A DNA stretch of 64,000 nt from Ruegeria halocynthiae (GTDB lineage Bacteria > Pseudomonadota > Alphaproteobacteria > Rhodobacterales > Rhodobacteraceae), in assembly GCF_900106805.1 (NCBI RefSeq), contig NZ_FNNP01000008.1, forward strand, positions 1 through 64,000, in the 5' to 3' direction. The notes under the pieces were generated by a model that was given only the letters and a program-made list of their open reading frames with translations, was not told the origin of the DNA and ran no database searches. The position numbers were made by a program, and so were the translations under genes. Positions 48,383 through 63,567 of the stretch are shown piece by piece (within the stretch, counting starts at the first letter, position 1; each line of letters starts with the position of its first letter).

Positions 48383-49966
48383 ATGGCCAAGCCCAAGAAA
48401 CAGCCCCGCCCCAAGGCCGTAACGCCAAAAGGGTTCCGCGACTATTTCGGCGAGGAAGTCACGCAGCGCACTGAGATGCTGCGGAAGATTGCGGGTGTCT
48501 ATCATCGTTACGGGTTTGATGCGTTGGAGAGCAGCGCGGTTGAAACCGTCGAGGCGCTGGGCAAATTTCTTCCAGACGTGGATCGCCCGAACGAAGGCGT
48601 GTTTGCGTGGCAGGAAGTTGATGAAAACGACAAGGGCGATTGGATGGCCCTGCGCTATGACCTGACCGCGCCTTTGGCCCGCGTTTACGCGCAGCACCGC
48701 AACGACTTGCCGACGCCTTATCGCCGCTATGCGATGGGTCCGGTCTGGCGCAACGAAAAGCCGGGGCCGGGGCGGTATCGTCAGTTTTATCAGTGTGATG
48801 CAGATACGGTTGGCACGGCTTCGATGGCTGCCGACGCTGAAATTTGCGCGATGCTGTCGGATACTCTGGAGACCGTCGGCATTCCCCGGGGCGACTATTT
48901 GGTGCGGGTGAATAACCGTAAGGTTTTGAATGGAATTCTTGAAGGTTTGACTGCCGATAACGACAAAGCACGTTCGTTGCCAACCAGTTTTCCCGAAATG
49001 TTGGATACAAAAGTGACCGACTTAGAGTTCATTGATCCGGATGCGGTTCTTCGCACTATCGACAAGTTTGACAAAGTTGGCGCTGGCGGTGTCTTGGAGT
49101 TGTTAACTACTGGTCGGAAAGATCAATCGGGAGCCTTCATTGATGGGGTTGGTCTCTCAGAGGAAGATGCCTCTCGAGTTGTGCGGTTCATGCAGTCGAA
49201 AGGCAAAGACAACAGAGAGACTTTGTCGAACCTAAAAAGCCTGATGGGTGAAGAGAGCTTGGCTGCCCACAAGGAACATGGCGTTTACAATGCTGGCCTA
49301 GAGGGGATTGAGGAACTCGAAGCAATAGCCAATTTGCTCGAAGCCCAAGGATATGGTCCTGACCGCATTGTTATCGACCCATCGGTCGTTCGTGGCCTCG
49401 GCTACTACACCGGACCGGTCTACGAGGCCGAGCTGACCTTTGAAATCTTCGACGAAAAAGGGCGCAAGCGGCAGTTCGGCTCTGTCGCAGGCGGCGGTCG
49501 CTATGACGATCTGGTCAAACGCTTTACCGGGCAGGAAGTGCCCGCGACTGGAATCTCCATCGGTGTTGACCGCTTGCTGGCCGCTTTGCGCGAAAAGGGT
49601 CGGATCGCGGCGCAAGCCACTGGTCCCGTGGTTGTGACCGTGATGGATCGCGACCGCATGGCAGATTATCAGGCCATGGTGGCTGAGCTGCGCAATGCAG
49701 GTATCCGGGCCGAGGTTTATCTGGGCAATCCCAAGAACTTTGGCAACCAGTTGAAATACGCGGACAAGCGGAACTCTCCCATCGCTGTGATCGAAGGCGG
49801 TGATGAAAAAGACAAGGGCATCGTGCAGATCAAAGACCTGATCCTAGGCGCCAAGATCGCCGAAAGCGCCACGCTTGAGGAATGGAAAGAACGCCCCAGC
49901 CAGTTTGAAGTGCCGCGTGGTGATCTGGTCGCTAAGGTGCGTGAAATTCTGGACAATCAGGACTAG
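48383..49966 (+). CDS. hisS: Histidyl-tRNA synthetase
   Basis: The 527-residue class II synthetase contains motif 2-like [20 protein letters not shown], the HisA signature [13 protein letters not shown] and [13 protein letters not shown], and the C-terminal anticodon-binding domain ([20 protein letters not shown]). It charges tRNA-His with histidine. The stretch from about 48900 to 49390 (residues about 173-336, the insertion domain) uses codons richer in A/T (GTT, TTG, TTA, AGA, CTA) than both flanks although the frame is intact. It is followed by hisZ after 3 bp and hisG. Confidence 0.96.
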
Positions 49967-49969
49967 GCC

Positions 49970-51064
49970 ATGCCCAACCGTTCCCAGATACAGGCCCGCG
50001 CTGCGATGATGCGTGTCCGGTTCGAGGCTGCGGGCGCGCATGTGGTGGATACACCTCTGCTGCAATCGGCCGGAATGCTGCTGGACCTTTATGGTGAGGA
50101 TATCCGCGCCCGCGCCTATGTCACCTCGGACGCATTGCGGGGCGAGCAGATGCTACGTCCGGATTTCACTCTGCCGGTTGTGCAGATGCACATGTCTGAA
50201 GGGGCGGAGCCTGCGCGATATACCTATTCGGGAGAGGTGTTCCGCCGTCAGGAACATGATCCGGACCGGGCCAATGAGTATATTCAGGTCGGTTATGAGG
50301 TGTTTGACCGCGAGGATCCTGCCGGGGCCGATGCCGAGGTGTTCTCGTTGTTTGCGTTGCAACTGCGCGGTCTCCCCCTGCGGGCGGCGACGGGCGATAT
50401 CGGTATTCTGACCGCTGCCGTGGCAGGGCTGAAGACAACCGATCGTCGCAAGGTCGCACTGATGCGGCATCTCTGGAGGCCACGTCGGTTCCGTGTACTG
50501 CTGGACCGTTATGCCGGACGTAAACAGGGCCCCGAGGATCGCGATGCGCTGCTGGATGCGGATGATCCTCTGTCGATCGATGCACCGCTGATTGGTAAGC
50601 GCCGCGCGCCCGAAATCCTTGAGCGGATCGAGGCGTTGCGTGAAGACCGTGCCGCGCCGCCGATCTCGGATTATGAATTGGCCGGGCTCGAGACGTTGCT
50701 GAACGTGCGCGAAACCATGCCTTTCGCATTGGAACAACTGCGCGATGTGGCCGTCGACTTGCCGCAGATCACTCCAGCTCTGGATCGACTGGAGGCTCGG
50801 ATCGCGGCCTTGCAGGCGCGAGGGGTGGATGTAAACCGGCTGGATTTCGAAGCCTCGTACGGCCGGACTTCGATGGAATATTACGACGGTTTTGTCTTTG
50901 GTTTCTATGCTGAAGGTCGTCCTGATCTGCCGCCCGTGGCAACCGGCGGGCGCTATGATGCGCTGACCCGACAGTTGGGTGATGGCTCTGAGATCCCGGC
51001 CATCGGCGGTGTGATCCGCCCAGACTTGATGCTGGAGATTGAGGAGAGTGCGCAATGGGCCTGA
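49970..51064 (+). CDS. hisZ: ATP phosphoribosyltransferase regulatory subunit
   Basis: The 364-residue protein is a HisRS paralogue without an anticodon-binding domain: DIRARAYVTSDALRGEQMLR, RPDFTLPVVQMHMSEGAEPA, GEVFRRQEH, and GGRYDALTRQLGDGSEIPAI. Synthetase catalytic signatures are altered, as expected of HisZ. It forms the hetero-octamer with short HisG and confers histidine feedback inhibition. Its end overlaps hisG by 10 bases. Confidence 0.93.
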   Translation: MPNRSQIQARAAMMRVRFEAAGAHVVDTPLLQSAGMLLDLYGEDIRARAYVTSDALRGEQMLRPDFTLPVVQMHMSEGAEPARYTYSGEVFRRQEHDPDRANEYIQVGYEVFDREDPAGADAEVFSLFALQLRGLPLRAATGDIGILTAAVAGLKTTDRRKVALMRHLWRPRRFRVLLDRYAGRKQGPEDRDALLDADDPLSIDAPLIGKRRAPEILERIEALREDRAAPPISDYELAGLETLLNVRETMPFALEQLRDVAVDLPQITPALDRLEARIAALQARGVDVNRLDFEASYGRTSMEYYDGFVFGFYAEGRPDLPPVATGGRYDALTRQLGDGSEIPAIGGVIRPDLMLEIEESAQWA

Positions 51065-51744
51065 AGTTGGGCGTGCCCTCGAAGGGTCGGTTGATGGACA
51101 AGACCTTCGCGTGGTTCGAAAAGTGCGGTATTACCCTGTCGCGCAGTGGGTCGGATCGCGAATATGCGGGCAAGGTCGAGGGGATTGAAGGTGTCTCGCT
51201 GATCTTGCTGTCCGCCGGGGAGATACCGCGCGAGCTTGCCGCCGGGCGTATTCATCTGGGTGTGACCGGCATTGATCTGGTGCACGAGAAACTACCGCGC
51301 TGGGAACAGCAGGTTGAAGAGGTCGCACCGCTGGGGTTTGGCAAGGCTGACCTGATCATCGCAACGCCTGCCTGCTGGGTCGACGTGGAGACGCTGGATG
51401 ATCTGGACGCGGCAGCGGCAGGCTTTCGCAAGGCGCACGGGCACCGGCTGCGTATCGCCACCAAGTATCACCGTCTGGTCCGCGAATTCCTGACGGACGC
51501 AGGCGTTGCCGACTACACGCTAGTCGACAGCCAGGGCGCGACCGAGGGCACGGTGGTGAATGAAACTGCCGAGGCGATTGCTGATATCACCTCGACTGGC
51601 GAGACGCTCAGGGCGAACCACCTGAAGATTCTGTCGGATGGGTTGATCCTGCAATCGCAGGCGACCTTATGGCGCAGCCGTGTCGCGAAATACGATGCGG
51701 GCGAAAAAGCGGTTCTGAACGAGCTTATGGAGCGGTTGATCTAA
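51055..51744 (+). CDS. hisG: ATP phosphoribosyltransferase catalytic subunit, short form
   Basis: The 229-residue protein lacks the C-terminal regulatory domain of long HisG, consistent with the adjacent hisZ. Recognisable are KLGVPSKGRLMDKTFAWFEK at the N-terminus, the GVTGIDLVHEKLP motif, and the PRPP-binding loop VDSQGATEGTVVNET. It catalyses the first step of histidine synthesis (ATP + PRPP). Its stop overlaps the convergent DUF1489 gene by four bases. Confidence 0.95.
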   Translation: MGLKLGVPSKGRLMDKTFAWFEKCGITLSRSGSDREYAGKVEGIEGVSLILLSAGEIPRELAAGRIHLGVTGIDLVHEKLPRWEQQVEEVAPLGFGKADLIIATPACWVDVETLDDLDAAAAGFRKAHGHRLRIATKYHRLVREFLTDAGVADYTLVDSQGATEGTVVNETAEAIADITSTGETLRANHLKILSDGLILQSQATLWRSRVAKYDAGEKAVLNELMERLI

Positions 51745-52301: not shown

Positions 52302-54584
52302 ATGAGCCGCTTTGCCGCCCCCATCGCCGAGCAGATCTGGGACATGAAATACCGTTTCAAACAGGCGGATGGTACGCCCATCGACCAGACAATCGAAGAC
52401 AGCTGGCGGCGGATCGCCCGTGATTTGGCACGTGTTGAAGAAGATCCGGGGCATTGGGAAGAAAAATTCTATGGGGCGCTGGAGGATTTCAGATACCTGC
52501 CCGCAGGCCGCATAACGGCCGGGGCCGGGACGGCACGCCAGGTGACCCTGTTCAACTGCTTTGTGATGGGCACGGTCCCCGACAGCATGGGCGGCATTTT
52601 TGACATGCTGAAAGAGGCCGCGCTGACCATGCAACAGGGGGGAGGGATCGGCTATGACTTCTCGACCATTCGCCCTCGTGGGGCGGATGTGAAGGGTGTT
52701 GCGGCGGATGCCTCGGGCCCCCTGAGTTTTATGGATGTGTGGGATGCGATGTGCCGGACGATCATGTCGGCCGGGTCGCGTCGTGGTGCGATGATGGCGA
52801 CGATGCGCTGTGATCACCCAGATATTGAGCAGTTTATCACTGCAAAATCCGATCCGGCCCGCCTGCGCATGTTCAATATGTCTGTGCTGGTGACTGATCC
52901 ATTCATGGAAGCGGTCAAGGCGGATGGATCGTGGGATTTGGTTTTCGGGAACAAAGTCTTTCAAACCGTTCAGGCACGCGATCTTTGGAACAAGATCATG
53001 CAGGCGACCTATGATTATGCCGAGCCGGGTGTGATCTTCATCGACCGTATCAACAAGGCCAACAACCTGAGCTACGTCGAAACTATTGCCGCGACGAATC
53101 CATGCGGAGAACAACCTCTGCCGCCCTACGGTGCCTGCTTGCTGGGCTCGATTAACCTTGCACGTCTGGTGGCAGAACCATTCGAAGATGCAGCTCATCT
53201 GGATGAGGCCGCATTGCAGGACCTTGTCGCCACGGCGGTTCGCATGATGGATAACGTCGTTGACGCATCCAAGTTCCCATTGCCAGAGCAGGCCGCGGAA
53301 GCGCAGGCCAAGCGACGCATTGGGCTGGGCGTGACAGGGCTTGCCGATGCTTTGCTCATGCTGGGCCTGCGCTATGGTTCGGACGAGGCGGCGCGTCAAA
53401 CCGAGCGCTGGTTGCATAGTATTGCCCGCGCCGCGTATCTGGCGTCGGTGGATTTGGCAAAGGAGAAGGGGGCGTTCCCACTGTTTGATGCCGAGAAATT
53501 CCTGGCCAGCGGTACCATGCTGCAGATGGATGACGATGTGCGCGACGCGATCCGTGATCACGGCATCCGCAATGCGCTGCTGACTTCGATCGCACCGACG
53601 GGAACGATTTCTCTTTACGCAGGCAACGTGTCTTCGGGGATCGAGCCCGTCTTCGCCTATGCTTACACGCGCAAAGTGTTGCAGAAAGACGGCTCTCGCA
53701 CCGAAGAAGAGGTGGTTGATTACGCCGTTCAGATGTGGCGCGACAAGTTTGGCGATAAGGAACTGCCGGATTATTTTGTCAATGCACAGACATTAGCCCC
53801 GTCGGATCACGTCAGAATGCAGGCTGCGGCGCAGAAATGGATCGACAGTTCGATCTCGAAGACGATCAACTGCCCCGAGGACATTAGCTTTGCGGAGTTC
53901 AAAGATGTTTACATGCAGGCTTGGGATCAGGGCTGCAAAGGATGTACAACCTATCGCCCGAATGACGTGACCGGGTCGGTTCTTTCGGTTTCTGAAAGTG
54001 CGGATACCGCGCCGGGCGAAAGCGCTGACGCCCCGCACGAAGTGGATGGTGGCGAGGTGGTCTACATGTCCGAACCGCTGGACCGCCCGCAATCGCTGGA
54101 GGGGTCAACCTACAAGCTGAAATGGCCCGATAGCGAGCACGCAATCTATCTGACGATCAATGATATCGTGATAGGCGGTCGGCGTCGTCCCTTTGAAGTA
54201 TTCATCAACTCGAAGAACATGGAACACTACGCGTGGACCTTGGCCCTGACACGGATGATCTCGGCTGTGTTCCGGCGTGGTGGAGATGTGTCCTTCGTGG
54301 TCGAAGAGCTCAAGGCTGTATTCGATCCGCGCGGCGGGGCCTGGGTTAAGGGCAAATACATACCATCCATTCTTGCTGCGATCGGCGGAGTGATAGAGCA
54401 ACACATGGTTGCCATAGGATTTCTTGAAGGCGAAGGGATGGGTCTGAAATCGGACCCTCAGGCGCAGGTGGTAAACTTGGACACTCCACGCGGCAAGGCG
54501 TGCCCGTCCTGTGGCCAGTTCGACATGGTGATGATCGAAGGTTGCATGACCTGTCGCAGTTGTGGTCATTCGAAGTGTGGTTAG
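52302..54584 (+). CDS. nrdJ: Vitamin B12-dependent (class II) ribonucleotide reductase
   Basis: The 760-residue protein has the class II reductase pattern: active-site redox Cys in TLFNCFVMG (C86), the catalytic NPCGEQPLPPYGACLLGSIN block with C268 and E270, and a C-terminal zinc-ribbon-like tail ACPSCGQFDMVMIEGCMTCR. It makes deoxyribonucleotides using adenosylcobalamin, without oxygen requirement. No nrdAB is present in the window. The length is short compared with larger NrdJ forms of over 900 residues. I see no B12 riboswitch in the 129-bp leader. A hairpin follows the gene. Confidence 0.93.
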   Translation: MSRFAAPIAEQIWDMKYRFKQADGTPIDQTIEDSWRRIARDLARVEEDPGHWEEKFYGALEDFRYLPAGRITAGAGTARQVTLFNCFVMGTVPDSMGGIFDMLKEAALTMQQGGGIGYDFSTIRPRGADVKGVAADASGPLSFMDVWDAMCRTIMSAGSRRGAMMATMRCDHPDIEQFITAKSDPARLRMFNMSVLVTDPFMEAVKADGSWDLVFGNKVFQTVQARDLWNKIMQATYDYAEPGVIFIDRINKANNLSYVETIAATNPCGEQPLPPYGACLLGSINLARLVAEPFEDAAHLDEAALQDLVATAVRMMDNVVDASKFPLPEQAAEAQAKRRIGLGVTGLADALLMLGLRYGSDEAARQTERWLHSIARAAYLASVDLAKEKGAFPLFDAEKFLASGTMLQMDDDVRDAIRDHGIRNALLTSIAPTGTISLYAGNVSSGIEPVFAYAYTRKVLQKDGSRTEEEVVDYAVQMWRDKFGDKELPDYFVNAQTLAPSDHVRMQAAAQKWIDSSISKTINCPEDISFAEFKDVYMQAWDQGCKGCTTYRPNDVTGSVLSVSESADTAPGESADAPHEVDGGEVVYMSEPLDRPQSLEGSTYKLKWPDSEHAIYLTINDIVIGGRRRPFEVFINSKNMEHYAWTLALTRMISAVFRRGGDVSFVVEELKAVFDPRGGAWVKGKYIPSILAAIGGVIEQHMVAIGFLEGEGMGLKSDPQAQVVNLDTPRGKACPSCGQFDMVMIEGCMTCRSCGHSKCG

Positions 54585-54674
54585 CTGGTATAAAATGTAT
54601 CTTTGTTGTTGTGGCGTTTCATAGGACATGACCTAAACGTTTCAATAGATCATTTTGGCTGGTGATATGAGAAT

Positions 54675-54701
54675 ACGGCCTCGGATTTCTTCCGGGGCCG
54701 T
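54675..54701 (+). terminator. Terminator-like hairpin after nrdJ
   Basis: ACGGCC-T-CGG and CCG-G-GGCCGT form a 9-bp stem with one mismatch and a 7-base loop, 90 bp after the nrdJ stop. No T-run follows, so termination may be Rho-dependent or the hairpin may have another role. Confidence 0.45.
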
Positions 54702-55051
54702 TCGCTAGTCTAAAAAGGACAGACGAATGAGATGGTACTGGGCTGACGACATTATCAGGCTTTGATACAAGGGGCGGGAAACAGCCATTCGCTGCGGGTG
54801 CGATGACCGCATGGCGTAACGCTGAAAGCAGTCGTTCACTCTGACTTCAGCGATGCCGAGACGGCTAGCCATAGACGGTCTCTAGATCTCCCATTTCTCC
54901 TCATCCGCCCAAAAACGCTTCTTCCGCCCTCTCAAGGAGTGCCGCATAGTACCACTATCGATGGTGGACACTGAGCCTCCGCCAAACGCAGGGGTTAGGT
55001 AGGGTTCAACGGACGTTTACGTTCAACCTGACGCCGAGGAGTGATTTAGGT
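54702..55051. other. Intergenic leader of the giant STAND gene, with a repeat fragment
   Basis: No gene is seen. The 17 bases at 54782-54798 are identical to the conserved core of the repeat at 24411-24427. The last 30 bases contain GAGGAG (55036-55041), ten bases before the TTG start at 55052. The boundary between core genome (nrdJ) and the accessory block falls in this stretch. Confidence 0.5.
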
Positions 55052-58000
55052 TTGCTAAAATTGAGCATTGATCCGCAAAAACCTCCAAGCGAAGGCGAAC
55101 GCGCCGCCCGTCGTGGCTACTTGCGTCAAGATGATTTTTCCGCGCGCCGCATCTACTCATTGCTTCTTGAACGCTCGTTCGCCTGGGTTGGATGGGCGGA
55201 TCGAGATGCAGGTGTTCTGGATGATCTTGTCCTAGGTACTACTGACGGCGTTTTGGCGCACCAGATTAAGAGTTCAAAGAACCCTCAAGGTATAGGCGTA
55301 ACGGCACTGCTCTTGGGAAGAGGTGAAGAGGTCAAGCGGCTCGCATCATCCTTTCTAATGCTTCGAAAGCAATTTCCAGATGAAAAACTGCGGCTGATCT
55401 ATGTAACCGACGATCCTCTCACCAAAAATGATTGCTTGTTGAAGGATGAGGACGAAGCATCCACTGAGCAGTTCATGCGAGACTGGAATGCCAACCGTTT
55501 CCTATTTGAGAAATTAAAAAACACCAAATGGAAACCGCTACTTGATCAGCTGCGTCAGGTTTCGGAACTAAATGAATCGGAGTTTGTCGACTTCTTCACC
55601 TGTTTTGAAGTGGTCGCCGGAAATTCCGTTTCGCGTTTGGTCCCATCTTCTGACGATGTTCAGGTCGAGCAACAAATCCTAGATCTGCGTGACAGAATTC
55701 CGGCATTGATCGTGGAAAACGATCACAAGAGCCGATGGTCGCGGCAAGAGCTCCTTCAAGCACTCAACTGGCCTGATAGCTACCGGCTTCGTTTTGACCA
55801 CCGGTTTCCGCTAGGGAATTTTGTCCAAAAGAACGAACAAACGGAAGCCGAACTGCAAACGGCAATTGATAACTGTTCGTCCGGGTATCTTGGGTTAGTT
55901 GGCCCGCCCGGCTCTGGGAAATCGACGTTACTTCAGCGAGCCCTCAAAGGAAAACCTGGCGTTCAAGTGCTTCGTTACCTCGCATTCGTACCCGGTAGCG
56001 CTCAGGGGCAGGGACGCGGGGAAGCAGACAACTTTTTTGACGACCTGAACGCTCAGTTTTCGGAAATCCTCGGCGGGAGTAAACGGCTGTTTGAAACTAG
56101 TCGGCTCGGACGCCAACGTGCCTTTGAAGGTTCTTTGCTCCGTGCGGGCAAGGAGTTCAGCGAGAACGGCACCAGATTCATTGTTGTGGTCGACGGATTG
56201 GATCACATTCCAAGGGAAGAGATGCCCGATAGGTCTCTTCTCTCCGCGTTGCCGTTACCCGATACTGTGCCGGATGGTGTCGTGTTTGTGTTGGGAACGC
56301 AGCGGATCGATCTATCAGACATGCCCGTAGCGGTGAGGAACCAAGCTAGCAAAAAAGGGCGGCAAGTCAGCGTGCAGCCTCTGAACTTCGGCGCTACAAA
56401 ACGTATGTCCGATCAACTCGGTCTTCCAATTGAAATAGACCGACGATCGGTTCATGACGTCGGGCAAGGGCACCCCTTGGTCACTCGATATTTGGTCGAA
56501 CTTCTCCGACAAGACCCCACCAAAGCGGATGAGCTGCTAGGCGGGGCCTTCGTGTTCGACGGCGATCTCGAAAAGGTCTACGAAACCGCTTGGCTTGGCG
56601 CGTCGTCTTCCGACGGTGCCACGCTCGTTCAGCAAGTCTTGCTCTTGATCGCTTTTGCCCAGGGAGGGATCGAGCCAGACCTTCTTGCATCAGCCACCTG
56701 CGACGAAGCCGTGGAAACGGCGCTCAAATACGCGGGTCACCTGCTTCAGAAAAGTCGCGATGATTGGGACGTATTCCACAACAGTTTTCGCCTTTTCTTG
56801 AGAGGAAAGGCTGTACTCCGTTTTGGAAAACCGGACGAAGCCTTCCGCGCTCCAAAGGTCTACTCAACTCTCGCGGAACTCTCTGGGAGAGCAATGAAAT
56901 CCAGCCCACAGAGATGGCTCGCATTTCGATATCTTTTTCTTGCCGGTGAACATGGGCGAGCACTGGCGATGTCGGGGCGGCAATTTTTTGTCCAACAGTA
57001 TCTGGATGGACGGTCTCCATACGATGTTCACGGGGATATCTCTGATGCCTATCGGTTGGTCGAGAATGACCGTGATCCGGAAAAACTCTTTGATCTCATG
57101 CTTGCCGACGATGAGGTATCTCGCCGGTCTGAAGTTTTTGAGGGCGTCGACCCGCTGATCGATGCCTACCTTGCGGCGGGGCTTTTTGATACGGCGATTG
57201 AGCAGTTGCGTCACACCCATCCGGCAGGGAAGGAATGGCTGGTGGTGGATGCCCTCCTCGAACAAGGGCGGCTCGATCAAGCAAGGGATTTGTTCGAAGA
57301 GGCTGACCTTTTCGGGGGAGCATTCGCCAGTTTGAATGTGCATACCCGAGGCGAAGACCGAGCCGCATTAGAGTGGGCGCGACGAGCCGTGCGCTTCATG
57401 GATCGTTCCTCGCTTGTCACAACCCTGAAGGACTACCTGACGGGGCTGCAGCACGAAAATCGTCATTCTCCTCACGAGGCTGATCTCGAAGAGGTCACAG
57501 AGCACTTGCGGTACTGCCTTGCTCGGGCTTCGGTCGAGCTCACAGAGTACCCAAATGTAGACGAACTCCTGGCTTTCTGGGCTGTAGACGAAAACGCAAT
57601 ACCGCTGCTCCGTTTGGAGCACGCGGAAAACCTGTTCGCCGGTGGCGATGCGGAAAGCGGGTTGCAAGTTCTGAAGACTCTCACCGAATGTTCTTCGTTT
57701 CAGGACTTGCATTCCTCTTGGCATCTCTCTGCCGCTCGAATGGCATTCCGTGCCGGTGATCAGGCGCTTGCGCGATCGATCGCGAAGCTGTTGTCGCCCA
57801 AGCCACTCGACCACGAGCGATACCAGTTGTTTGAGGCAATTGGTCCAGCCAGCGTGGAGTTGGTGTCAGTTGCGTCCTTGTTCTCGGCGCTCGATATGCC
57901 TCTGCCGGACATCGTGACGCCCAAAGAGCGCCTTTTCAGGGGTGCGCAACACCACTTGATTGAGTTGGGCCGTCAACTTGGCGCAGCCCGCACACGTGGT

Positions 58001-61000
58001 TCCCTCCAATTTGGCGAGGTTTCTCGCGTCACATCAGAAGCGATGCAGTTCCTCGCGTCGGCAAGGCGAACCAACGACGACGACTGGTCTGTCGGTCATC
58101 TGATGCCGACCCTGGCGGCGCAGATTGCGTTGGCACTCATAGAATTGATCAAGCAGGCCAAAGCAGACTACACGCCGTTGGTTCGCGCGTATGATCAACT
58201 TATCCTGCAAGAAGGAACGGCGTTTCGTTGGTGGCTTGATTTTCGCCGGAAACTGATCCTTGGTCTCTTCAACTTGGATGGTGATCGCGAACGCGCGATC
58301 GAACGCTTGAACGCCGCGCTCCAGGATATCCGAGCCGATGATCCGCAAGAAGCGCTTTCAGAGAAAGTTGAGTTCGCAATCGCCTGCGCGGAAGTTGACG
58401 ATATTGAAACCGCACAGGCGATCTTGCGAGGTCTCCGGTCGGAAGCTCTCGGTTCGTATCGACCCGCAAAGAAAGATGGTGACTACGAACTTTGGACCGA
58501 CGTGTTGGCGCTTGCGAACCAGGATGATCCCTCCAATCGAAAATCCCGTTCTCTTGTTGCGGTTCGCCTCGTTGATGGGCTGCAGAACACTAGCGGATAT
58601 GACAAAGCGGCGCGAATGGCGCAACAGGTGCTTTTTGAAGCATCGGTTCCAGACGCAACTATGGCTTGGAGCGCAGTGCAATGGGCCATGGATTGTGGAG
58701 CATTCTCGTGGTTCGGTCTTCTTGACTCCTGCCTGCATGGCTTGGTCGTCAGGAGCCCGGAAAAGGCGAATGTCGCATTGCTGGTGTGGTGCAATCTTGC
58801 ACTGCCATGGCTTCATGATGGCTGGAGGAGTACGACTGAAACGGGTGCCTTCCTTGAAAGGTTATTCCGGGTTGCACCTCGCGAACAACTCGACGGTCTA
58901 GAAGAAGTAGTTGTCCGCGCGATCGGAACAAACGCTCCACCCTACGTCAAGACCACGCTCCTTCGAATAGTCGAAGACGCTGCGAAAAAACGCAATGGTG
59001 GGAGGCTGGCGGAAACCGCCAGAAACAGGTGGCAATCCGAGGAGAAATCCGGAGATGATGAAAACCCCGACAACCGAGACTACGGTCACTTGGTGGACTT
59101 CGAGCAAATCTCCGTCGAGATCGAACACGAGGCCCAATACCATAAGAAAAGAAACGAAAACTGGCACATTGACGGGATCAGCTATGGCCTACGGAAAGCC
59201 ATCATTCGGGTGATTGGGGCTGCGACATGGGCAGAGACGGATAGCTTCCTAGGAAAACACCCGAAGGTCGCAAAAGACTGGGAAATCGCGAAGGCCTTTG
59301 CGGAAAAAGCAGTTCAAGCAGACAGGAACGAACGTGCCATAGAAATCCTAAAACCGTTCAAAGGTGATCTAGAGACCGGATGGAGTTGGCCTAGCAGCCG
59401 CGGTCGTTTCCGGCATCACCAGATTAGGCACATCGTTGGGGAGAGCGATGTACACAACGCCGCGCTCCACGATTTCGTCGAAGACATTGCGGCGACCAAG
59501 TATGGTGTCTCAACAACTTTGTGGTCGATCGATGAGATTTTCCCGCTCCTTTTTGAAACGGTGCCATGGGCCGGATTGTGGAACCGTTTGGAGGACAACA
59601 TTCGGGTGGGACGAGATTTCCAGGCCGGGAGCGATCTGCCTCTCTCCGACACGCTGAAAGACGACGATGAACTTGTCGTCAAGCTAGTGGAAATGGCCTT
59701 GGAAATGGGGGCGACCGACCTAGCACTTCAGACGGCTAATCTGGTCCGCGATCTCTTGGATCAGGGGCGAGCATCTGTCGTCGAATTGCTCTTGCGAAGG
59801 CTGCTCGGTGAAGGTGGCGAAAAACGAATGCGCGCCATGGACTTGTTGGTGCAATCACAGGAGAACAGTGATATCCGGCGAGCTTTTCAGGCTGATCTCG
59901 CAGGCTTGGTGAGCGATCCGGACGTTGGTGTTTCAGCGTCTGCCTTTTTCTTGGGTTCGAAGTGGCGACAACCCTTGCAGTTGCCTTCAACTGAACTGCC
60001 GCCCTTCTATTCATTGGAGTTCGCGCTGAACGACAGGGCTAGCGGGGCAGCTTTGCGTGACGAACACTCGCACGCGCTGTTGCTGGACGATCCACTAGGC
60101 TGGACCGAACACTGGATGCGCCTTGTCGAAATGCTGGAGGATTTCTCCGGTGTCTCAACCATCAAGATCCGACTTCGAGTGGCACGGTTGATCGACTCGT
60201 GGGGTGGTTTCCAGACGTTTGGGCATGATGCCTCAAAGCGACAAGAGGCGAAGCTATCTCGAGTTGACATGAAGCTGACGTATCGACGCCCGCACTCAGA
60301 GGTAACAATTCGAGCACTTCGCCATGTCGTCCGTGAGCTTTGGTTCGCGGATCATATCAGTTTTGACCAAGTACGCTTGATTCTCCATGAATTACACTGT
60401 GATCCGGATCGCGCGAAACTCCCGACTATCGAAGAGAGGCCATCCACACTGCCCTGGCCAGATATTCCTCGGCATCTTTGGGGGGACAAGCTGAATAAGT
60501 GGTTGGAAAATGTTGCCCTAGATATCGCAGAAGCAGATCCGTTTTTTGGAATTGTGATCGGGGAGTTCCGAGAGTGGGAGGCAAAGGATTCGCGAGATGC
60601 CTTGATTGTTGAGCAATTGATGTGTGACAGGCTGGAGTTTCCGGTAGTGCCGAGCCTTGATGACGCGCTCTCCAAACTCGGTCGTGTTGTGCGCCTCGGA
60701 TATTTGGTCGCTCTGGACACAAGCAAATCTCAGAAGCCAGACCCAGTGTGCCGTTTTTTGCCACATCAGCTCGACCTGACGCCGTCGCAAGTTCTCGTTC
60801 TCAATCCTGAGGTTGCAAAGCTACTGAATTGGCACAGCATCACCAATGATCCTTACGTGTACTATGATGGCGATGGAGATTGGTGCGCCAAGACGATTGT
60901 TTGGCGTGATGGCTTGTGTCAATCCATCGACGACGATGGGCGCTATGCGAACGGTCAAATGGTGACTTTGTCAAAGAAAGGTCGGGCGGCATACGAGCAA

Positions 61001-61105
61001 TATTTCGGCCCGATCTCTATCAAATCCCACTCGTGGCGACGCACTGAAAAATCTGACGAGAAGCGTACCCAAGATATTTGGAGGTTCGCAGTATCCAGCC
61101 AATAG
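55052..61105 (+). CDS. Giant nuclease-STAND NTPase, Avs-like antiphage sensor candidate
   Basis: This 2017-residue protein starts at TTG 55052. Residues 1-200 look like a Cap4/DUF4297-type PD-(D/E)XK nuclease: DDFSARRIYSLLLE helix, then VLDDLVLGTTDGVLAHQIKS with acidic D57/D58 and the QxK pair Q71/K73. Residues 280-590 form a STAND NTPase: Walker A GLVGPPGSGKSTLL (281-294), Walker B FIVVVDGLDHI (376-386), sensor-like VFVLGTQR, HDVGQGHPLVTRYLVELL (468-485) matching the GxP motif, and the winged-helix end DVFHNSFRLFLRG. From about residue 600 to the end the chain is helical, with TPR-like units (for example 700-760), giving a sensor arm of some 1,400 residues. This layout equals that of Avs proteins, where a phage protein bound by the C-terminus triggers tetramerisation and DNA cleavage. 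It stands alone, with no separate effector. The exact Avs class cannot be decided. Confidence 0.8.
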   Translation: MLKLSIDPQKPPSEGERAARRGYLRQDDFSARRIYSLLLERSFAWVGWADRDAGVLDDLVLGTTDGVLAHQIKSSKNPQGIGVTALLLGRGEEVKRLASSFLMLRKQFPDEKLRLIYVTDDPLTKNDCLLKDEDEASTEQFMRDWNANRFLFEKLKNTKWKPLLDQLRQVSELNESEFVDFFTCFEVVAGNSVSRLVPSSDDVQVEQQILDLRDRIPALIVENDHKSRWSRQELLQALNWPDSYRLRFDHRFPLGNFVQKNEQTEAELQTAIDNCSSGYLGLVGPPGSGKSTLLQRALKGKPGVQVLRYLAFVPGSAQGQGRGEADNFFDDLNAQFSEILGGSKRLFETSRLGRQRAFEGSLLRAGKEFSENGTRFIVVVDGLDHIPREEMPDRSLLSALPLPDTVPDGVVFVLGTQRIDLSDMPVAVRNQASKKGRQVSVQPLNFGATKRMSDQLGLPIEIDRRSVHDVGQGHPLVTRYLVELLRQDPTKADELLGGAFVFDGDLEKVYETAWLGASSSDGATLVQQVLLLIAFAQGGIEPDLLASATCDEAVETALKYAGHLLQKSRDDWDVFHNSFRLFLRGKAVLRFGKPDEAFRAPKVYSTLAELSGRAMKSSPQRWLAFRYLFLAGEHGRALAMSGRQFFVQQYLDGRSPYDVHGDISDAYRLVENDRDPEKLFDLMLADDEVSRRSEVFEGVDPLIDAYLAAGLFDTAIEQLRHTHPAGKEWLVVDALLEQGRLDQARDLFEEADLFGGAFASLNVHTRGEDRAALEWARRAVRFMDRSSLVTTLKDYLTGLQHENRHSPHEADLEEVTEHLRYCLARASVELTEYPNVDELLAFWAVDENAIPLLRLEHAENLFAGGDAESGLQVLKTLTECSSFQDLHSSWHLSAARMAFRAGDQALARSIAKLLSPKPLDHERYQLFEAIGPASVELVSVASLFSALDMPLPDIVTPKERLFRGAQHHLIELGRQLGAARTRGSLQFGEVSRVTSEAMQFLASARRTNDDDWSVGHLMPTLAAQIALALIELIKQAKADYTPLVRAYDQLILQEGTAFRWWLDFRRKLILGLFNLDGDRERAIERLNAALQDIRADDPQEALSEKVEFAIACAEVDDIETAQAILRGLRSEALGSYRPAKKDGDYELWTDVLALANQDDPSNRKSRSLVAVRLVDGLQNTSGYDKAARMAQQVLFEASVPDATMAWSAVQWAMDCGAFSWFGLLDSCLHGLVVRSPEKANVALLVWCNLALPWLHDGWRSTTETGAFLERLFRVAPREQLDGLEEVVVRAIGTNAPPYVKTTLLRIVEDAAKKRNGGRLAETARNRWQSEEKSGDDENPDNRDYGHLVDFEQISVEIEHEAQYHKKRNENWHIDGISYGLRKAIIRVIGAATWAETDSFLGKHPKVAKDWEIAKAFAEKAVQADRNERAIEILKPFKGDLETGWSWPSSRGRFRHHQIRHIVGESDVHNAALHDFVEDIAATKYGVSTTLWSIDEIFPLLFETVPWAGLWNRLEDNIRVGRDFQAGSDLPLSDTLKDDDELVVKLVEMALEMGATDLALQTANLVRDLLDQGRASVVELLLRRLLGEGGEKRMRAMDLLVQSQENSDIRRAFQADLAGLVSDPDVGVSASAFFLGSKWRQPLQLPSTELPPFYSLEFALNDRASGAALRDEHSHALLLDDPLGWTEHWMRLVEMLEDFSGVSTIKIRLRVARLIDSWGGFQTFGHDASKRQEAKLSRVDMKLTYRRPHSEVTIRALRHVVRELWFADHISFDQVRLILHELHCDPDRAKLPTIEERPSTLPWPDIPRHLWGDKLNKWLENVALDIAEADPFFGIVIGEFREWEAKDSRDALIVEQLMCDRLEFPVVPSLDDALSKLGRVVRLGYLVALDTSKSQKPDPVCRFLPHQLDLTPSQVLVLNPEVAKLLNWHSITNDPYVYYDGDGDWCAKTIVWRDGLCQSIDDDGRYANGQMVTLSKKGRAAYEQYFGPISIKSHSWRRTEKSDEKRTQDIWRFAVSSQ

Positions 61106-61243
61106 GTGGAGCATTTACCGCGTCTTACCTGCGTCGGACCTGATATTGAGTTGGCATACCAATGCTGGGCGATGCACGAACGGCTGGACCGGTGACGCTG
61201 TGCTGCGGCGTGGGGCGCGTCCATCGAGGTCTCCTTTGGGCCG

Positions 61244-61747
61244 TCACCACTTGCGCCAGCTCAAGCCCATGGTTGCGGCAATGGCTTCGGGACAGCCAGC
61301 TTGCACTCGGGCTCGATATGCGCGCACCGAAACGCCGTTCTCAAGCGCCGTTTTCTCCCATTCATCATCCGGATTGGGTGATATGTCTCGCGTGCCTTCA
61401 GTCGCAGCCCTCTCCCCTGACCAGCCGCGCCTGAGGCGTGCTTTGAATGTGCTGAAAGCTATCCCGTTTTCTTCGGCGACTGGCCAAGCTGGTAGACCAT
61501 TGTCCAATTCGGCCAGACTATCTCTTTTCCGATTTTCAAATGCGCCTCGATCGAATGGAAACTCGACATGCTCGCACCGAACTGTCCAAAGCTTGGTGCC
61601 ATCCTCGGCATCCACCAAATCAACAACACTGGAATCCGCGAGCGGTAGCGGTGCGAGACCGTAGCGACTGCAAAGCCACCAGGCATCTTCGTGACTGGCA
61701 GCTTTTCCGATAACCTTTCCGCCTAACGGCGCTACCAAATGAATCAC
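61244..61747 (-). CDS. Protein of unknown function with two 24-residue repeats
   Basis: The 167-residue protein (GTG start) has an alpha/beta-like N-terminal part with LVDAEDGTKLWTVRCEHVEF, then two copies of a 24-residue unit at residues 93-116 and 136-159. Both follow ENG(I/V)....(F/Y)(K/R)AR(L/V)..G......AAT. Such units resemble the helix-turn-helix-like repeats attached to phage HNH proteins and may bind DNA. It is convergent with the giant STAND gene, 139 bp apart. No family name can be given. Confidence 0.55.
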   Translation of the reverse strand: MIHLVAPLGGKVIGKAASHEDAWWLCSRYGLAPLPLADSSVVDLVDAEDGTKLWTVRCEHVEFPFDRGAFENRKRDSLAELDNGLPAWPVAEENGIAFSTFKARLRRGWSGERAATEGTRDISPNPDDEWEKTALENGVSVRAYRARVQAGCPEAIAATMGLSWRKW

Positions 61748-62202
61748 GTTTTATCTCCCTCTAACTATCCGCCTGACTGCCGGGTGACGAGTATCATTTC
61801 ATCTCACCTAATCACCGCGATCAGGCGATAAAAGATGCCAACGGCAGCTTATGCGACGCCGCAGTGCGGCAACGAAAGCGCCAGGCAATGACGGCTTAGG
61901 GCCGCCCTCGTGATCAGCTACTATTGGGGCAGGGGGCTTTGCTGCAACGGCACCGAAGTCGGCAGCGAGCCCTTTCTGTTTGAACACTGCCGACTTGCAG
62001 TCCACCAGTTTCGTGGACGACTGTAGCAACACCAGTGTTAACCTGATTGAGGCCCTCCATTGCGGAAGGTGAAGTAAATAGGGGTCAACTTGAAGCCTTT
62101 TCTCAAAACCTTGACGCGTCAGCGCAATAAAACTGAGCCACAGATTGCCAGATTGGTTCCACACGCAGCGTACAAACACGCTCAACTGAAAGGGACCAAG
62201 AC
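61748..62202. other. Intergenic stretch, nothing recognised
   Basis: An open frame at 61808-62215 on the minus strand has no family resemblance and covers the ribosome site and start of the small exported gene at 62203, so it was not annotated. The only clear element is the ribosome site AAAGGGACC at 62190-62198. No hairpin, repeat or tRNA was recognised. Confidence 0.4.
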
Positions 62203-62499
62203 ATGAAAAAGACACTGATTACATCCGTCACCGCATTCGCCATTATCCTGAGTGCCGGAACGTCCACGGCTGGTCCGTTGCGTGACCATAGCCAACGAGG
62301 GTTTGCGCAGAAAGTTCACTCATCAGTTTCGCAAACAGTCAATCACGCTGATGGGATGGCCGATATCCGCCGTCATCGCGAAGATGATCCGCAACCCCTT
62401 CTGAATACAATTAACATCGACGATTGGACTTGTGGTTACGGTGATACACAAAGGCCTCCAATCATACCCAGGATATGCCCCAGAGTTCCGCCAGGATGA
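62203..62499 (+). CDS. Small exported protein of unknown function
   Basis: The 98-residue protein has a good ribosome site (AAAGGGACC) and a typical signal peptide (MKKTLITSVTAFAIILSAGT, cleavage about TAG-P at residue 24). The mature part is hydrophilic with HADGMADIRRHREDD and a C-terminal region CGYGDTQRPPIIPRICPRVP carrying two Cys that may pair. No family is recognised. Neighbours are accessory genes. Confidence 0.6.
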   Translation: MKKTLITSVTAFAIILSAGTSTAGPLRDHSQRGFAQKVHSSVSQTVNHADGMADIRRHREDDPQPLLNTINIDDWTCGYGDTQRPPIIPRICPRVPPG

Positions 62500-62688
62500 T
62501 GCGTTGCCTTTCGGGAATGGATTGAAGGGGGTGGGATAATGACTGACGCCCTCAGCGCGGGAAATGGCTTCATGCACACGTTGCCTGCTAACCCCAGTCT
62601 TGTCTGTAGTGTCGCCAGAGAAGCCTTTAGGGCGACCGGGGGTTTTGTCCGCGATGTGTGAGTTCGACAGAGCCGGGAGTTCGCACTT

Positions 62689-62760
62689 GCAGCAAATGAC
62701 CGCAAAGCGGGCTGCGACCGCAGAATCTTGCCTGGGTGCTCAGTGTCCGGAATGGGCCGC
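62689..62760 (+). repeat. Copy of a dispersed intergenic repeat
   Basis: The 35 bases 62689-62723 match the reverse strand of 24390-24424 at 30 positions, including the 17-bp run GCAAAGCGGGCTGCGA. The following bases to about 62760 (CAGTGTCCGGAATGGG) resemble the next part of the same repeat more loosely. It sits between the small exported gene and the recombinase remnant. Confidence 0.6.
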
Positions 62761-62782
62761 CCGCGAGAGCGGCCCGTTGACT

Positions 62783-63415
62783 TTAGATCTCTATCGCTTC
62801 GGCGATTGCTAGGGCATCCTCGAGTTCGACGCCGAGATACCGGACTGTACTGTCCATCTTAGTATGGCCAAGCAGAAGCTGAACAGCGCGTAGGTTTCCG
62901 GTCTTCTTGTAGATCTAAGTGCCCTTGGTTCTCCTCATGGAATGGGTGCCGTAGGCGCTTGCTTCGAGGCCGATCGACGTGACCCAATCGCGGACAATCC
63001 GTGCATATTGGCGTGTCGAGATGTACAGGCGTTCATGAAGTCGGCCGGGCCAAAGGTACTCCGAACCGACCATCAGCTCATCTTCCATCCACTTCTCAAC
63101 AGAGGCACGTGTGCCCTCTGATATCTCAAAGCGCACGGGTTTCTGCGTCTTGCTTTGAAGGACCGAAGCCCGTTCCTTAATCTGACCCGATGACATGACA
63201 TCGGCGACCTTCATCTTCACCAGATCGCAGCCGCGAAGCTTACTGTCGATTGCCATGTTGAAGAGCGCAAGATCGCGATGATTTTCGGCAAGCTCGAGGC
63301 GAACTCGGATTGCCCAGACATGTTTTGGTTTCAGTGGTCGCTTCTTGCCGACGATACGCCCTTTGTTCCAGGCAGGGCGAAGTGCGCGAATGGCAGGTAA
63401 ATTTGGTGTTTCCAT
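62783..63415 (-). pseudogene. Tyrosine-type site-specific recombinase disrupted by one amber stop
   Basis: From ATG 63415 (METPNLPAIRALRPAWNKGR) the frame reads a short tyrosine recombinase: first catalytic Arg in MAIDSKLRGCDLVKM, HxxR in THSMRR. A TAG at 62915-62917 interrupts it right after SMRRTKGT. Beyond it the same frame continues with IYKKTGNLRAVQLLLGHTKM, then DSTVRYLGVELEDALAIAEA to a TAA at 62783. These residues hold the catalytic second His and nucleophilic Tyr, so the stop abolishes activity unless read through. A single base change would restore a 210-residue enzyme. It marks an island boundary to the right of the STAND gene. Confidence 0.85.
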
Positions 63416-63567
63416 GACTGATCCTCCGATCCGCCATGCCCTCCCAAAACGACAACCCGACGTTGACCGGAGCATTTTATCACGACACGCTGCGCTGCCT
63501 CCGAGGTCCACTCTGAGCCCAGTTTGACCGATGCTGCGGGCAGGTCGAATGGCCGCTTTGATTACGA

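Follow-up and report, generated by a model that had tools for sequence, protein, structure and literature searches.

A Cap4-like nuclease–STAND–solenoid protein of Ruegeria halocynthiae as a candidate Avs-type antiphage receptor

The gene and its genomic setting

The window, the whole 64,000-nucleotide stretch of Ruegeria halocynthiae DNA that was analyzed, carries an unbroken open reading frame of 2,017 codons with a TTG start (Table 1). The frame stays open for 34 more codons 5' of the TTG, which would yield an alternative protein of 2,051 residues and leaves the start codon unfixed; similarity to the relatives begins at about residue 10 of the 2,017-residue form. Reading of the translation placed D57/D58 and Q71-x-K73 where the initial annotation had put its PD-(D/E)XK-type nuclease motif. 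The same was true for the STAND core, which had been described as complete: Walker A with its lysine, Walker B, GHP, and HNSFR were all found at the residues given.

Table 1. Features of the nuclease–STAND–solenoid gene and its flanks (window coordinates).
Feature	Position	Strand	Basis or remark
Post-reductase stretch common to one congener (G006)	54585..54803	.	lineage-specific DNA starts after 54803
GAGGAG, Shine-Dalgarno-like, 10 nt 5' of TTG	55036..55041	+	read from sequence, putative
Nuclease–STAND–solenoid CDS	55052..61105	+	2,017 aa, TTG start; relatives found
Cap4-like PD-(D/E)XK nuclease domain (residues 8–262)	55073..55837	+	AF2 pLDDT 92.8; Avs3/Cap4/LmuA/HamA matches
Acidic pair D57 D58, presumed to bind metal in the nuclease	55220..55225	+	kept 69/69
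Q71-x-K73, presumed catalytic motif	55262..55270	+	K73 69/69, Q71 67/69; third-strand end in model
STAND NTPase core with winged-helix end (residues 263–600)	55838..56851	+	Avs1b models: 264–589, E 8.8e-19; 262–586, E 4.6e-15
Walker A GPPGSGKST (284–292)	55901..55927	+	motif reading, relatives' alignment
Walker B IVVVDGLDH (377–385)	56180..56206	+	motif reading, relatives; doubled as search pattern
GHP (473–475), GxP-type motif	56468..56476	+	motif reading, relatives' alignment
HNSFR (576–580), winged-helix end	56777..56791	+	motif reading, relatives; doubled as search pattern
Alpha-solenoid arm (residues 601–1790)	56852..60421	+	about 622–1226 Avs1b-homologous; residues 830 onward modelled and structure-matched
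Beta-rich C-terminal domain (residues 1793–2017), end of candidate sensor	60428..61102	+	model; inside Avs3 superposition span
Tyrosine recombinase (Phage_integrase), possible island mobility gene	62915..63511	-	E 5e-8; below cut-off in another search

The upstream gene encodes a ribonucleotide reductase (52302-54584). Synteny was compared in six of the 20 congeners carrying the reductase gene. Similarity to the window stopped with the reductase; in one of them it reached 54803, which is 249 bases short of the start codon. The 12–14 kb that follow the reductase in these six genomes did not match positions 54803-120000 of the contig, apart from a 217-base tnsA-like match. The site may be a hotspot, since in its congener this match likewise follows the reductase gene, at a distance of about 10 kb. 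Downstream, beyond the window (C26:66634-72856, that is, L009:12634-18856), we found Tn7-like genes (TnsA-like, rve transposase, TniB, and TniQ) followed by a KptA/Tpt1 RNA 2'-phosphotransferase, which is a possible cargo of the Tn7-like genes. The DNA downstream of the gene gave short matches to 21 plasmid records (18 from Phaeobacter, the others from Sulfitobacter, Tritonibacter, and Ruegeria), and this plasmid-matching DNA is partly mobile. Phaeobacter belongs to Rhodobacterales, so that the matches, with this reservation, point to that order as the probable lineage of the host.

Two further observations concern the flanks. At the edge of the congener's conserved block (54772-54806), some 32–35 bases recur on contigs C27 and C7 at 91%, possibly as a small intergenic repeat. 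At 48383-51744, two histidyl-tRNA-synthetase-like genes adjoin hisG in a likely HisS/HisZ/HisG cluster.

Domain architecture and similarity to Avs receptors

The model of the N-terminal domain yielded a PD-(D/E)XK nuclease fold of the Cap4-like type, not an unrelated one, in agreement with the motif assignment, and antiphage nucleases were among the top structural ranks for this domain. The arm was modelled as an alpha-solenoid up to about residue 1790, after which some 225 residues form a beta-rich domain. The approximately 1,400 residues of helical repeats described earlier thus hold as far as residue 1790, whereas the last 225 or so are predicted to be of another kind. PDB 8dgc ('Avs3 bound to phage PhiV-1 terminase') was the top structural match for both modelled chain ends. 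In the structure comparison, the arm superposed on terminase-bound Avs3 with its far end included (rmsd 7.7 Å, 11% identity, Foldseek TM-score 0.47), a likeness of models that solenoids can also reach by shape alone.

Profile searches gave a more limited picture. Pfam returned sub-threshold matches alone, to P-loop families and, weakly, to two TPR families; no SAVED domain was found among the matches up to E 1, the nuclease being followed by the STAND core instead. In PADLOC and NCBIfam, the sole strong match was Avs1b, limited to the STAND core. The second of the two matches listed in Table 1 scored 53.9 bits, the cut-off being 1500, while true Avs1b proteins reached 1816–2006 bits. The remaining rows for the protein were weak P-loop matches (E 0.01 or worse). 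The Avs5 model (NCBIfam NF041814) was not matched, and no match named Avs3 appeared in either library, both of which may lack an Avs3 model. Among the members of alignment A1, Avs1b matched eight of eight, mad8 and mad3 five of eight at weaker E-values, and Pfam Cap4_nuclease one of eight (E 0.038).

Comparison of profiles extended the Avs1b relationship well beyond the core. Residues 270–1241 proved homologous to Avs1b 204–1186 (P 99.9, E 1.8e-34). The arm alone matched with P 96.5, over about residues 622–1226 only; as controls, its reversed sequence gave P 0.1 and the arm of another nuclease–STAND protein P 29.5. Farther on, from about residue 1240 to 2017, the distal arm and the beta domain had no sequence match to Avs1b, and the N-termini of the two proteins did not align (P 0.1). 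Profiles A1, A4, and A5, run against the PDB, did not recover Avs3. The placement among the Avs families was largely right in the initial annotation. Its claim that the arm is unlike those of the characterized Avs classes was wrong.

Relatives, conservation, and distribution

A tblastn search of plasmids returned 31 records at E 1e-5. Six span at least 80% of the query, from Sphingobium at 36.5% and from Enterobacter, Citrobacter, E. coli, Salmonella, and Klebsiella at 29.3–29.4%. Matches to part of the query came from Rhizobiaceae, Nitrosococcus, Vibrio, and Rhodococcus, with ORFs also of about 2,050 residues save the frameshifted Vibrio one. The 50,697 phage records contained no match to the protein. 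A single-sequence scan of genome contigs recovered no relative; a search with alignment A1 identified 130 of 190 candidate stretches as relatives. According to record titles, the best 80 of these 130 belong to Pseudomonadota, Actinomycetota, Bacteroidota, Planctomycetota, Verrucomicrobiota, Chloroflexota, Acidobacteriota, Nitrospirota, Zixiibacteriota, Patescibacteria, and one archaeal bin, though single placements may be wrong because several records are bins assembled from metagenomes, and a few of these bins are truncated.

The best 80 loci and eight plasmid loci supplied 88 ORFs, 68 of which have at least 1,950 and up to 2,161 residues; the 20 shorter ones (contig ends, frameshifts, truncations) were set aside for the conservation counts. 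Across the query and its 68 full-length relatives, D57, D58, and K73 were invariant and Q71 was kept in all but two sequences. The 80 loci had been gathered with the patterns [IV][LVI][VI]DGLDHI and Wx[FV][FI]HNSFR, so that the invariance of DGLDHI and HNSFR arises partly by construction and was set aside as evidence; the nuclease residues are free of such selection. Mean pairwise identity was 0.34 for the nuclease, 0.41 for the STAND core, 0.25 for the proximal arm, and 0.24 for both the distal arm and the beta domain. The sensor side thus diverges fastest, in line with the expectation for a receptor.

The distribution is sporadic and mobile. Among the 196 nearby genomes searched, the gene is present in its own genome only. 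In a class-wide profile search, 41 of 385 genomes passed E 0.001, with a full-length match again confined to its own genome; the other matches listed were P-loop or other short fragments. For E. coli, the query consisted of the homologue's first 4,000 bases and detects near-identical DNA only: copies at 99% or above occurred in 11 of 5,426 genomes (nine chromosomal places, two on plasmids). In the two chromosomes viewed, the homologue is flanked by a fimbrial usher remnant on one side and hipAB on the other; the two plasmids viewed share the helicase, HTH, and integrase genes that accompany it.

Several individual copies deserve mention. In the E. coli chromosomal copies L167 and L168, the annotated start lies 139 codons (417 bases) late, with loss of the nuclease motif, and the frame stays open back to the start used on plasmids. 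The copies from a V. cholerae plasmid (L017), V. rotiferianus (L070), and Proteus terrae (L071) are 99% identical over their first 1,241–1,244 residues, and L017 and L071 are 92.6% identical over the last 800, which at the sequence level suggests that the gene moved between families recently. Frameshifts interrupt L017 and L070 near residue 1241, and L036 is frameshifted as well. A natural two-gene form in Vibrio was considered and rejected, the breaks being frameshifts in a gene 99% identical to the unbroken L071 gene. A Klebsiella plasmid (L220:6185-10606) encodes a more distantly related nuclease–STAND-like protein of 1,473 residues; L159 and L160 hold open frames of this type, likewise more distant, of about 1,570–1,580 codons.

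No neighbor family recurs in more than five of the 80 loci (best 80 of 130 relatives). Therefore, no fixed partner gene is seen. Individual copies do lie near other defense genes: GajA, GajB, and a gene annotated as Lit family in Sinorhizobium, AbiEii beside the Rhizobium copy, and Dsr1 beside the Nitrosococcus copy. The 100 ORFs around 18 relatives (25,916 residues, up to 3.7 kb away) gave single PADLOC matches to QatC, PD-T7-1, PD-T7-5, ThsA, ZorB, LmuA, Dsr1, and others. At E 1e-10, 14 models were matched there and 74 among the 119 ORFs (37,314 residues) of control regions in the same 18 genomes, one hand-picked 7.4-kb stretch per genome on the same contigs. Taken at face value, these counts show no defense-island enrichment around the relatives, which speaks against a defense reading. 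They are not convertible to proteins, since one protein can match several models, the listing named only 25 of the 74, and matches to HamB-type helicases are among those of the controls.

Proposed function and comparison with known systems

We consider the protein to be probably a stand-alone Avs-type antiphage receptor that senses terminase, activates its own nuclease, and acts by abortive infection. This reading draws on the modelled folds, motif conservation, sequence homology to Avs1b, the structural match to Avs3, the signs of mobility, and the lack of a recurrent partner. The C-terminal solenoid and beta domain would bind a protein of the phage, the large terminase being the likeliest candidate, and binding would let the STAND core bind ATP and oligomerize. 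Oligomerization would join and thereby activate the N-terminal Cap4-like nucleases, which would cut DNA and abort the infection. We infer the ATP-driven oligomerization, the terminase trigger, the DNA cleavage, and the abortive outcome; the trigger is suggested by those of the nearest systems (PMC12799240, PMC12931631). At such divergence, terminase recognition may not carry over, because Avs4 was solved bound to portal (PDB 8dgf, by its entry title) and Avs5, which has a Sir2 effector, is triggered by JADA (PMC12931631).

A receptor of the same kind could instead respond to another phage component, such as the portal, the capsid, the tail, or a protein made early; the divergent distal arm and beta domain would then determine the trigger. 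These parts are the least conserved, the distal part is without sequence match to Avs1b, and the use of JADA by Avs5 offers a precedent. Against this, the arm superposes on terminase-bound Avs3, its far end included, and Avs1, the named family nearest in sequence, is terminase-triggered (PMC12799240). We regard a non-terminase trigger as possible, if rather doubtful.

A main target among gene transfer agents (GTAs), plasmids, or other mobile DNA, for example, a resident GTA, rather than lytic phages is very unlikely. The idea derives from the only Terminase_6N match in the genome (C17:379150-379773; the search covered this family alone), which precedes genes for portal, protease, capsid, adaptor, and tail proteins (L238, C17:378400-394400); the cluster is read as a GTA from its GTA-like gene order. 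A Caulobacter CARD-NLR-like system that controls GTA release adds to it (PMC13236601). Many relatives, however, lie outside Alphaproteobacteria, where a GTA of this type would not be expected, and the gene is not part of general GTA biology, since the other 195 nearby genomes searched do not have it. The terminase of the GTA-like cluster is a possible self-ligand for a terminase sensor. It is quite unlikely, in our estimate, that the receptor must tell this terminase from those of phages or is licensed to kill GTA-making cells; if it were so, a terminase-sensing NLR-like receptor would exercise self/non-self discrimination against a domesticated prophage in its own genome.

A non-defense STAND regulator (MalT is one among STAND proteins) or a decayed gene is highly improbable: the frameshifted relatives and the unsupported enrichment would fit, but the nuclease and NTPase residues are intact, length is held in most ORFs, antiphage nucleases are among the top structural ranks, and the modelled nuclease fold speaks against a regulator.

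The protein can be set beside the known systems. It has the Avs order in the broad sense, with N-terminal effector, central STAND NTPase, and C-terminal arm in one chain, a layout in which we infer that the arm serves as sensor. PMC12931631 attributes nuclease effector activity to Avs1–Avs4, with recognition of terminase, portal, or Ksap1. Avs1 consists of the pro-nuclease Avs1a and the protease–STAND protein Avs1b, and an Erwinia Avs1 is reported to be activated by viral terminase (PMC12799240). Our protein shares with Avs1b (AVAST type 1; NF041810, PDLC02159) the homologous STAND core and proximal arm, but it has a nuclease where Avs1b has a trypsin-like protease. Upstream, where the reductase gene lies, ORF 54105-54629(-) matched nothing, while a true Avs1a control was recognized. 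Downstream, among ORFs of 80 residues or more, none of nine (82–172 residues; 60955-62812) matched Avs1c, while a control Avs1c of 82 residues did. Membership in Avs1 was rejected on four features: no protease, no Avs1a, no Avs1c, and a score below the Avs1b cut-off.

Avs5 (Sir2–STAND) is also a STAND receptor with a C-terminal sensor but has a different effector and a model of 763 positions, compared with a nuclease and 2,017 residues here. For Cap4 (CBASS), HamA (Hachiman), LmuA (Lamassu), and DUF4297 (HerA-DUF4297), control comes from SAVED domains, helicases, or SMC-like partners instead of a STAND core and arm in the same chain. Avs3 (AVAST type 3) has the same N-terminal Cap4-like nuclease and, by the model, the same arm fold, at 11–17% identity and with no sequence-level match found.

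The family is widespread and nearly constant in length (about 2,050 residues); in the plasmid and E. coli records examined, its members are mostly labelled 'ATP-binding protein', and a word-based literature search, covering mostly the top of longer lists, found no name for it. Defense surveys using PADLOC and NCBIfam may miss it, since they return partial Avs1b matches only. For experiments, an E. coli copy whose nuclease domain is complete would be a convenient starting point. Since a single gene combines Avs1-like sequence with a nuclease and an arm resembling those of Avs3, the exchange of effectors among terminase sensors can be put to the test. The protein is best described as a candidate single-gene receptor, Avs3-like and related to Avs1, and it represents a large family with poor labelling, the parts of which are very similar to those of known Avs receptors.
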